From Candidatus Kaelpia imicola (lineage in GTDB: Bacteria; Omnitrophota; Gorgyraeia; Kaelpiales; Kaelpiaceae): 34,806 nucleotides of DNA. Every line of letters starts with the position of its first letter. The stretch's first letter is position 1. Positions 77 through 25,360 of the stretch are shown here, one piece after another. A program made the position numbers and the translations under genes. The notes beneath the pieces were generated by a model that searched no databases, was not told where the DNA came from, and saw only the letters and a program-made list of their open reading frames with translations. The stretch is taken from NCBI GenBank assembly GCA_030765505.1, contig JAVCCL010000032.1, positions 1 to 34,806 of the forward strand, read 5' to 3'.

Positions 77-120
77 ACTGGTAAAACCTCCTTTTTTAAA
101 TTTGCAGTCAATAGAGGGAT

Positions 121-158
121 AAAAAAAAACGCAAGGGAGATAGAATGCTCACCTTGCG
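121..158 (-). terminator. Rho-independent terminator in the csp leader
   Basis: On the minus strand CGCAAGG (158-152) pairs with CCTTGCG (136-130). Three more pairs (GAG 150-148 with CTC 139-137) form past a one-base bulge, leaving an 8-base loop, and nine T residues (129-121) follow immediately. It lies between a good minus-strand promoter (195-223) and the csp ribosome binding site (87-92). It would therefore end most transcripts before the csp start codon unless antitermination occurs, or it ends a separate small RNA of about 65 bases. The hairpin is seen directly; its regulatory role is inferred. Confidence 0.75.
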
Positions 159-194
159 GACTGATATTTTACTCTCCTCATCACTACAATCGGG

Positions 195-223
195 ATTCTA
201 CAATATTAGTTATAGTTAGTCAA
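195..223 (-). promoter_or_regulatory. Predicted sigma70-type promoter for the csp leader
   Basis: On the minus strand TTGACT (223-218) is followed after 17 bases by TAGAAT (200-195), matching the -35/-10 consensus at five of six positions each. The predicted start is near 188, giving a leader of about 110 bases to the csp ATG. It is divergent from, and does not overlap, the citrate synthase promoter. Confidence 0.6.
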
Positions 224-22762: not shown

Positions 22763-23704
22763 ATGATAAAAAAAAGAGTTGGTGTTTTTTGTTTTTTGTT
22801 TTTATTGACAACTGTTTTGTCCCGTCCTTCCTATTGTGAATATTGGGATGATTGTTTGCTAGTTTTACCAGGGATTGCATCTGGAGAATATCCTACTTCC
22901 TATTGTGAATATTGGGATGATTGTTTGCTAGTTTTACCAGGGATTGCATCTGGGGAATATCCTAACGACGTTTCGGAAAAAGGTTTCAGTAAAATATTAT
23001 TAGATAATTTTATAAATTTTTCAGATATCTATCAGTTTCAAGAAATTATTGAATTAGATAATTTTATTCAATTAGAATTGGTTCCAAAAGAGTTCATTTT
23101 TTTTAACCATGATATAGGTTTAGATGAAAAGACAGGGCTGGTATATGACCACGTCCGCATTTTAGTTGATTCTGGAAAAATTACTCAGGTAGGTAATTAT
23201 TCAGCTCCTTCTAAATTTTCTTTGCAAATCCCTGTTTTGTTAGGGGTAATTCAACAGAAGCCTGGATTTGAAAATGTTGGTATGAAACCAGAAGAGGCAA
23301 GGGATATATTAGTATCTACATTAAGCACTATCTCTGATTTCATTGATACTTATCCTGAGTATAGAGGATTTATACCATGGGTAGAGATTAATTTTGATGG
23401 GAACATTAGTCCTTCTGATAATAAAATTCCTTCTCTTGATAATGGTCAATTTACATGGGCTCTAGTTGTTTTGGTTTCTGCTTTAGAAGAATCGAATAAT
23501 GACAAAGAATGTCTTTTAGTTCGTATGGCAAAAGATATTCTTAAAGCTCAGGATTATTCTAATTTTTATGATTCTGATTTAGGTATTGTCTATGGTGCTG
23601 TAGGGTTGAGCTTTGATACAGGAGAGTGGGTAGGAACAAATTATGTGCTTAATGATATGTTTGAAGGAACCATGGCAGTATTATGGGGGGTGCTTAATGG
23701 TTAA
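22763..23704 (+). CDS. 5' part of the interrupted glucoamylase-like gene (313 residues to the TAA)
   Basis: This part is translatable as it stands, from ATG 22763 after GGGGGT. It has a signal peptide (MIKKRVGVFCFLFLLTTVLS), then the duplicated 23-residue segment, and then roughly half of a helical-barrel domain. It stops inside a helix-like segment (MAVLWGVLNG), so the product would be an incomplete fold and probably inactive. The function is inferred only from resemblance to glucoamylase-like proteins. Confidence 0.6.
   Translation: MIKKRVGVFCFLFLLTTVLSRPSYCEYWDDCLLVLPGIASGEYPTSYCEYWDDCLLVLPGIASGEYPNDVSEKGFSKILLDNFINFSDIYQFQEIIELDNFIQLELVPKEFIFFNHDIGLDEKTGLVYDHVRILVDSGKITQVGNYSAPSKFSLQIPVLLGVIQQKPGFENVGMKPEEARDILVSTLSTISDFIDTYPEYRGFIPWVEINFDGNISPSDNKIPSLDNGQFTWALVVLVSALEESNNDKECLLVRMAKDILKAQDYSNFYDSDLGIVYGAVGLSFDTGEWVGTNYVLNDMFEGTMAVLWGVLNG
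22827..22964 (+). repeat. Two-copy 69-base tandem duplication within a coding sequence
   Basis: Copy 1 is 22827-22895 and copy 2 is 22896-22964, differing at one base (A in GGAGAA versus G in GGGGAA). The unit is 23 codons, so the frame is kept and the segment CEYWDDCLLVLPGIASGEYP appears twice directly after the signal peptide. The near identity indicates a recent duplication or an assembly artefact. Confidence 0.95.
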
Positions 23705-23821
23705 ATACCCGAAGAAGTTTGGGATAACCTAAATATTCCTACTATAGAATATAGAACTCAAGCAGGAGAAGATATTACTACGTTAGAAGGTTTTAGGGGC
23801 TCCTTCCATGAACATTGGGCA

Positions 23822-25360
23822 TTGGCATTTTTACCGTTTATGGATTCTAAGCTAGCTCCTTTATATGAAAATTTTCTTTATGCTCAGGCTGATTTTGCAC
23901 ATAAAAATGGTTTACCTGGGTTCCTTTCGACAGTTTATGATTCTAAGGGTAGTTATCGACAGATGGGTGTTCCGGAAATAGCTGCACAGCCTGTAGATAG
24001 AAGCGATGTTGCTGTTGGTTTTGCAACGGCTATGGCAATGTTAATAGATAGAAGAATAGGTGCTATCTGGTTGAATAATTTTTACAATTTTCCAGGTGTT
24101 TTAACTCAAACAGGAGCAGTAGAGTCTGTCGGCTCGGATGGTTATGCAGATATTTTTACTGCCGATGGTAAGGGTATGACTATCTTAGCCTCCACTGGGG
24201 GTGTGGTTTCCGAGGTCGAGCTCTACCTTAAAAATAATTTCGTTCCGGGAACAGATATTACCATGTACGATAGATTTGTACAGCTGTTAGATTCTAAATA
24301 TGAACAGATGATGGAAATGCGGGAGAATCAGACTATATACACGCCAACAAAGCCATATCCTTTGCCAGCTGAAAACCAGATTACTGTAGAGACTAAAGAA
24401 TTACCATCTTCAGATTCCAGTGTTAATCTAAACGATTATTTGCAGCCGGGACATTTGCACGGTAAAAATGTTAGTTCTCTCGGTTACTCCGTGCTCATTG
24501 ATGATGTACGTTCTGGAGGCATATTGGAATTTGAGTTTAGTATTCCTGTTTCGGGGGATCAATGGGCTTTTCGGGGGACTTATTTATCGAAAGGTATCAA
24601 TATATCTGAGATGAATTATCTTGTAGTTTCTATACCCGCTGATAGTAAGCCACATTTATTTGACATCGAATTAAAACGAGACGATACACGATTAGCAACT
24701 GCTCGTATTAATACTACTCAGGAAGGCGTTATATCTGAGGATGGGTTATGGAAGACAATCGTTGTTGAAATTAATCCTGATATTGTAACAAAAACATATT
24801 CTTGTAATTATATTGCAGTTGCTATTCATAACCCTGCAAATCTTCCTTCTAATTTTAGACCTTATGGACGTGAAGGGGTTATCTGTTTAAATAATATATT
24901 GATTACCAAAGAGCATCCTTTTTTGGAACAAATTGATACATCAGAAATAGTGCCTGTAGTGGAAGGGGGAAATGAGATTGTTCAATACTGGAGCCCAAGT
25001 CATGGTAATTTAGATATAATTGAGGATAATAATCGTGATGTTATAAGAATCAGCAATACTTATGGTGCCCCGGGATGGAGAGGAGGATATATATCTCCTA
25101 CGGATATTTCTGGATATGGGATAATGGTTATTAAAGTAAGAAATATAAGCGGTAAACCTAATAGTTTTTATATAGAGTTAAAAAATGAACAGGATAATAT
25201 TTTAGGTAAAAAGAGGAGAATTAATTTACCTTCTGATTTTGAATGGCATATAATTAGCATAAATATTCCCTGGCTAATATCAAAACCTGCAAACTATCTG
25301 GCTATTTCTGATCCGGAATGTTCGTTTGAACTGTCTTCTATCGCATTTATAAAAAATTAG
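23822..25360 (+). CDS. 3' part of the interrupted glucoamylase-like gene
   Basis: Open from just after the TAA; the first usable start is a TTG at 23822, which lacks a ribosome binding site, so independent translation is doubtful. It holds the second half of the presumed helical barrel (FLPFMDSKLAPLYENFLYAQ, MGVPEIAAQPVDRSDVAVGF, IWLNNFYNFPG). Two beta-rich modules follow, about 200 and 105 residues long, each ending in short strands such as GVICLNNILITK and SFELSSIAFIKN, similar in pattern to CBM11/CIA30-like modules. The gene ends 87 bases before PEP carboxykinase. Confidence 0.55.
   Translation: MAFLPFMDSKLAPLYENFLYAQADFAHKNGLPGFLSTVYDSKGSYRQMGVPEIAAQPVDRSDVAVGFATAMAMLIDRRIGAIWLNNFYNFPGVLTQTGAVESVGSDGYADIFTADGKGMTILASTGGVVSEVELYLKNNFVPGTDITMYDRFVQLLDSKYEQMMEMRENQTIYTPTKPYPLPAENQITVETKELPSSDSSVNLNDYLQPGHLHGKNVSSLGYSVLIDDVRSGGILEFEFSIPVSGDQWAFRGTYLSKGINISEMNYLVVSIPADSKPHLFDIELKRDDTRLATARINTTQEGVISEDGLWKTIVVEINPDIVTKTYSCNYIAVAIHNPANLPSNFRPYGREGVICLNNILITKEHPFLEQIDTSEIVPVVEGGNEIVQYWSPSHGNLDIIEDNNRDVIRISNTYGAPGWRGGYISPTDISGYGIMVIKVRNISGKPNSFYIELKNEQDNILGKKRRINLPSDFEWHIISINIPWLISKPANYLAISDPECSFELSSIAFIKN

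Follow-up and report, generated by a model that had tools for sequence, protein, structure and literature searches.

The region upstream of csp in the window (the whole 34,806-nt stretch of DNA analysed here, which makes up the first third of contig C32 in a genome of 1.46 Mb and 43 contigs) is, with reasonable probability, one copy of an Omnitrophota-wide csp leader that works first as a transcription attenuator and to which most families add a translational on/off switch. Its elements, all on the minus strand, are the following:

223-218 and 200-195, minus strand: sigma-70 promoter, TTGACT-17 nt-TAGAAT, with 10 of 12 consensus matches
about 189-188, minus strand: predicted transcript start, from the promoter position
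176-188, minus strand: strand 1, the P1 5' strand (UGUAGUGAUGAGG), at the extreme 5' end of the transcript, from covariation in 103 leaders and the fold of the window leader
173-177, minus strand: GGAGA, the leader half of the antiterminator-like 1:3 pairing, from own-versus-swapped and shuffle tests and from GGAAG/CUUCC in G002
136-140, minus strand: UCUCC, the counterpart of GGAGA, located 3' in the P2 loop and sharing one base with the P2 3' arm
152-158, minus strand: 5' arm of P2, the terminator stem (CGCAAGG), from P2 covariation
130-136, minus strand: 3' arm of P2 (CCUUGCG), from P2 covariation
121-129, minus strand: U-tract of nine U's, from conservation in relatives and a shuffle test
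103-119, minus strand: strand 4, the P1 3' strand (UCCCUCUAUUGACUGCA), from covariation and the fold; here not antisense to the csp start region
87-92, minus strand: Shine-Dalgarno (SD) sequence of csp, AGGAGG, from the sequence
76-74, minus strand: ATG of csp, from the sequence

The original prediction had described a promoter followed by about 30 transcribed bases, a hairpin, nine U's and only then the SD and ATG of csp, and this layout is borne out by the coordinates above, with UGUAGUGAUGAGGAGAGUAAAAUAUCAGUC as the leader sequence between the predicted start and the hairpin. The hairpin has 7 bp, or 10 when the upper stem GAG/CUC is included (-14.2 kcal/mol), and U9 follows it directly. 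A G+C-rich stem immediately 5' of a U-tract has the form of an intrinsic, Rho-independent terminator, and its position between the promoter and the first gene of the unit is the layout of a transcription attenuator. A comparable stem and T-run, defined as a 7-bp stem with at least four G-C pairs followed by at least 7 T in 9, was absent from all 5000 dinucleotide shuffles of the region; an automatic terminator scan had missed the hairpin because its loop limit was 8 nt. The fold energy of the window leader as a single sequence was only mildly unusual (z -1.7), and single-sequence energy was therefore given no weight. The leader is also predicted to contain a long helix absent from the original prediction, P1, in which the 5' end of the transcript (188-176) pairs with 119-103.

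The window begins inside csp, so that codons 1-25 are found at 76-1 of the minus strand and the remainder of the gene sits on a separate contig, C38. A second copy of the leader was found in the same genome at the start of contig C18 (97% over 222 bp), its transcribed part being identical to that of the window except for 7 instead of 9 U's, and the two contigs are unrelated upstream of the csp promoter. The sister species G001 also has two leader copies, and near-identical csp loci split the assembly within the gene on its contigs C18, C25, C31 and C42, as well as on C18 and C38 of the genome studied here. The two near-identical csp loci thus amount to a repeated locus that breaks assemblies, which explains why the csp of the window is cut at codon 25. 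The closest relatives of this csp among named genomes belong to Candidatus Omnitrophota. A second type of csp gene in this family (G000:C42:30700-31350, locus L044; also L042, L043 and L045-L047) lacks the leader and stands directly downstream of an apparent HU/IHF-like gene. Elsewhere in the window, at 22763-25360, an ORF that opens with a tandem duplication of 22-23 aa (YCEYWDDCLLVLPGIASGEYP, twice) is followed by a second ORF, and the pair may be one split gene.

csp genes gathered from 59 relatives defined a shared architecture that starts with TTGACA/TATAAT and (G)UAGUAAAUAAGGG-linker-CCGCAAGG-loop-CCUUGCGG-UUUUUU and continues, after the U's, with GUUAUUUACUAUAAU-AGGAGGU-ATG. A covariance model (R1) was built from 21 of these leaders, the window included, and the window, being one of its own model-building sequences, scored 68.5 bits; it carries everything by which an element was defined (P1, P2 and a U-tract, with csp downstream), and relatives left out of the building of R1 display all of these features too. 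The element was detected in 142 of the 246 genomes of the class and in 110 of its 197 genera, with up to five copies per genome, and in 15 more genomes from other classes of Omnitrophota. Among the loci of the class that were fetched, tblastn detected csp at 124 of 130; five of the remaining six break off in the csp start or right at it, and L213 carries an apparent csp remnant. At this last locus (201-420) the element is followed by the apparent degraded remnant and then by a small Cys4 zinc-ribbon gene. All fetched copies from the other classes of Omnitrophota lie 5' of csp. Among 34 named genomes, R1 matched three of six Omnitrophota and one Lachnospira; no csp-linked element was found in the 28 genomes from outside the Omnitrophota, the sole weak match (L276) having no csp nearby. 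A search of 4227 Rfam families at gathering and permissive thresholds returned none that fits the leader. The cspA thermoregulator RF01766 (threshold 78 bits) stayed below threshold, with 22.3 bits for the window and at most 66.4 for its relatives, and the matching letters of these alignments fall mostly in the coding part of csp.

The original prediction of an attenuator also called for covariation analysis in related genomes, which supported P2 and P1 alike. In alignment A5, made by MAFFT from sequence only and comprising 103 non-redundant leaders of 36 families, 90.2% of the cells of P1 and P2 were paired, and both sides had changed in 19 of the 21 pairs. Double-changed cells numbered 101, against 37.3 in shuffles (0 of 500 reaching the observed value), and the covariation measure was 0.263 versus at most 0.095 with slid partners. 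Whole helices have been replaced in some leaders, with AGCAGGAA/UUCCUGCU in L255 and GAGUAAA/UUUACUC in L217 where others carry UAGUAAAU/AUUUACUA. Home-made tree-based nulls, on which no conclusion was built, did not clearly separate even P1 and P2, as they were too noisy, owing to a tree derived from about 120 columns and to jitter in the SD spacing. The attenuator reading is supported in outline, in that a terminator stem and U-tract 5' of csp have been kept by compensatory changes across 36 families.

The same helices bear on whether csp is transcribed through the terminator at all. The promoter and terminator could instead yield a separate small RNA of about 65 nt, with csp expressed mainly from another promoter past the terminator, a reading suggested by the layout alone and by the TATAAT-like string found within the P1 3' strand of many relatives (57 exact). 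We regard it as quite improbable: only 4 of 143 leaders contain an internal promoter that reaches 10 of 12 matches, versus 127 of 144 related leaders with one at the place equivalent to that of the window promoter, and covariation joins both sides of the U-tract through P1. Since P1 spans the U-tract, only a read-through transcript can form it. In related leaders the commonest distance from the end of the -10 box to the beginning of the conserved RNA is 5-7 nt, and transcription appears to begin at about the first base of P1.

If transcripts do run from this promoter into csp, the structures could still serve a purpose other than termination. The leader could bind Csp and stabilise the 5' end, with P1 shielding it from RNA decay, the U-rich stretch next to P2 acting as a Csp binding site, and control exerted by mRNA stability and translation only, with no termination switch. 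In favour of this, the first transcribed base is also the first of P1, no other feature is as stable as this helix in the family of the window, and Csp proteins are known to bind their own leader at short unpaired stretches (PMC9947658). Moreover, the csp leader G003:C85 (L294, 10100-10800) has no terminator and no U-tract and retains a P1-like closing helix around a small hairpin. Homologues lacking the hairpin had been named in the original prediction as evidence against it, and this one counts against the hairpin being indispensable; the full element is retained by a further csp copy in that genome (C29, L041). P2 loops of 12-15 nt, longer than in most intrinsic terminators, were likewise counted against an attenuator. 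Against a purely stabilising leader, the U-run starts right at the base of the G+C-rich stem in all 37 families, as in a terminator, and the complementarity of strand 1 to the terminator arm, described below, is conserved. At least five U's occur in the 8 nt after the stem in 142 of 144 related leaders, the U content being 84% in these 8 nt and 57% in the next 6. We therefore hold termination to be the preferred explanation and consider a stabilising leader without it unlikely.

The complementarity in question joins the leader strand UAAGGGNNNN to NNNNGCCUUG, which runs from the 3' part of the P2 loop into the beginning of the 3' arm, and corresponds to the GGAGA/UCUCC pairing that the original prediction had proposed as one possible control. 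When one leader from each of 37 families was tested free of register, the 1:3 energy was -6.4 kcal/mol with the own partner, compared to -5.6 with swapped partners (z about -2.9, p about 0.003) and -4.1 with shuffled ones (z about -7), and three control pairings in the same test gave no signal. An early register-free test had been no better than its control because the 3' part of the leader segment has its own complementarity to the 5' part of the loop; cleaner segments and several controls turned the result positive, and this order of tests, negative first and positive after the change of segment, bears on the weight to be given to 1:3. No covariation was detected for 1:3 in fixed alignment register, and pairing of the linker with the P2 5' arm gave no own-versus-swapped signal.

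Within the genus of the window, the pairing is GGAGA/UCUCC in the window itself (-7.4 kcal/mol), GGAAG/CUUCC in G002, and an 8-pair helix around GAGGAAG/CUUCCUU in L006 (-9.6). Predicted nascent folds of the window contain 1:3 at 53-56 nt, P2 from 59 nt and P1 at 75-90 nt. For RNA just long enough to hold the whole of P2, a leader pairing of the 1:3 type is still preferred at 20 C in 57 of 144 leaders. In the window 1:3 overlaps the terminator arm by one base only, and would thus be able to weaken or shorten the terminator there and hardly to abolish it. Taken together, the sequences proposed originally are present and leader strands across families pair better with their own partners than with swapped or shuffled ones, while fixed-register covariation is absent and the overlap in the window is slight; GGAGA/UCUCC is thus probably a genuine, if weak, instance of this kind of pairing, and there is moderate support for 1:3 as a conserved, weaker alternative helix that would compete with the terminator.

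A fourth pairing, 4:5, would link transcription to translation in most families. In consensus, the P1 3' strand reads UGCCGUUAUUUACUAU and is antisense to GUAGUAAAUAAUGGCA, a stretch made up of the SD-ATG spacer, the ATG and codon 2. For 89 of 139 leaders the 4:5 state is predicted to exceed the P1 state in stability, with median duplex energies of -16.8 for 4:5 and -10.1 kcal/mol for P1, and the own-versus-swapped comparison gave z of about -4.5. Fixed-column covariation of 4:5 did not rise above shuffling (column composition), and covariation between strand 4 and csp codon 2, with L041 and L239 as suggestive examples, was not significant (permutation p about 0.03-0.4). We take 4:5 as a likely start-codon control in most families. 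Families f1 (that of the window), f3, f29 and f36 mostly lack it and have start codons predicted to be more open. In the window, pairing of strand 4 with the SD-ATG region (-5.9 kcal/mol) is no stronger than that of shuffled sequences, and the ATG is predicted to be unpaired at 0.90, so the start would not be masked. Because 4:5 is mostly missing in these four families, P1, P2 and the U-tract are taken as the common core of the Omnitrophota csp leader, and 4:5 as a widespread, non-universal extension.

Further variation was observed around this core. An inserted arm, CCCCGUUAG...CUAACGGGG, follows the U-tract and precedes the last bases of the P1 3' strand in L009, L010, L011, L014, L052, L054, L060 and L277, and in these families a conserved leader stretch, UUAGAAGUC, is complementary to GAUUUCUAA of the arm, perhaps providing a further switch. 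Leaders of family f54 from another class (L283, L286-L289) carry a longer insert 3' of the U-tract, and the strand close to their start differs; in L283, UUGUC lies opposite GACAA upstream of the ATG, possibly an independently built start-masking helix.

Two other ways of working such a terminator were weighed. The 10-codon frame MRRVKYQSAR (181-149), through which the original prediction had envisaged control, occurs in both csp copies of this genome and could in principle support translation-coupled attenuation. The proposal did not survive comparison: the frame is missing in the same-genus G001, G002 has a different short frame, any such ATG frame occurs in only 34 of 144 leaders, leaving 110 with none, and the frame has neither a ribosome-binding site nor a codon theme. 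As no conserved short ORF overlaps the terminator across the 144 leaders, in the manner of a trp-type leader peptide, we give this alternative almost no credence. Alternatively, the partly conserved linker (GGGAnUAGAAnUCUU) and the P2 loop, which retain in the A5 consensus some sequence that P1 and P2 leave unexplained, could form the aptamer of a ligand-binding riboswitch that controls the terminator. Linker and loop differ strongly among families, however, and none of the 4227 Rfam families matches, which makes a riboswitch highly improbable; moreover, csp genes being the only ones controlled, temperature or protein feedback is favoured over a metabolite.

In the attenuator that we prefer, RNA polymerase would start at about 188 and reach P2 and the U-tract within 70 nt. 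Strand 1, once it emerges, would find its first partner in the 3' half of the P2 loop together with the adjoining first bases of the 3' arm (1:3, antiterminator-like), until P2 displaces this helix to form the terminator (2:3); if 1:3 lasts long enough, polymerase would read through. Strand 4 would then capture strand 1 (1:4, that is, P1), so that the read-through mRNA has its 5' end locked into a long helix. An alternative partner for strand 4 exists in most other families, where it may pair with the SD spacer, ATG and codon 2 (4:5) and turn translation off; there strand 1 mimics the start region and would thereby keep translation on. As 4:5 is missing in the family of the window and the start codon is open, the attenuator and the 5' helix alone would remain there. 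By our inference, only part of the transcripts would end at the U-tract, slower strand displacement in the cold would raise read-through, and the switch would be subject to feedback from Csp. In families with 4:5, cold would allow 1:4 to form before strand 5 is transcribed, so that the start codon stays open, whereas in warmer conditions, or with Csp as a chaperone, the balance would shift to the states of greater stability (2:3, then 4:5), giving cold induction and autorepression.

Autoregulation by Csp, an idea already present in the original prediction, is possible, and published effects at terminators go both ways. CspD of E. coli reduces termination and CspA, CspC and CspE antiterminate (PMC9765468, PMC11648934), whereas CspB and CspD of B. 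subtilis favour termination (PMC8307031), so autoregulation could have either sign; E. coli CspA also has RNA chaperone activity, with the leader of its own mRNA among its binding targets (PMC9947658). A bolder formulation, which we put forward tentatively and with considerable doubt, is that up to four pairings compete in a phylum-wide RNA switch, where a single strand at the 5' terminus would serve as antiterminator (1:3) and then as start-codon protector (1:4 versus 4:5), and a single folding race, slowed by cold and accelerated by Csp as chaperone, would set both read-through and translation of csp. As many as five csp loci per genome would supply terminated 5' fragments with a free strand 1, and these might in addition capture strand 4 of other csp mRNAs in trans.

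Among known systems, the E. coli cspA thermosensor leader (RF01766) likewise precedes a csp gene, and its 5' structure can adopt alternative folds, including one that hides the ribosome-binding region (PMC9947658), but its sequence and architecture are different and no intrinsic terminator has been described before cspA. In the csp 5'-UTRs of B. subtilis there are also conserved leader elements (cold shock boxes), with suppressor mutations in or near them upstream of cspC, and CspB and CspD affect terminator read-through; however, no terminator has been described inside a csp leader there, and most of the terminators tested show promoted termination (PMC8307031). With trp-type leaders and terminator/antiterminator riboswitches, the Omnitrophota leader shares the series of promoter, short leader, putative antiterminator-like helix, predicted intrinsic terminator and gene. 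It differs from these classical attenuators in having no leader peptide or known ligand, in the predicted reuse of strand 1 after read-through, when it would pair beyond the terminator (P1), and in the start-codon control of most families. Finally, csp RNA thermoswitches of S. aureus were reported in 2021 by Catalan-Moreno et al. (cited in PMC8307031). These csp mRNAs are said to have leader folds that alternate with temperature; to our knowledge, no leader terminator is known for them.

No published description of this leader was found in the literature searched, and it is apparently an undescribed RNA family of a phylum that is large and uncultivated. Through one shared strand, two usually separate layers of control, transcription termination and the masking of the start codon, appear to be joined in it, and its many natural variants offer a test system for self-regulation of Csp by faster RNA refolding, and for the sign of this regulation.
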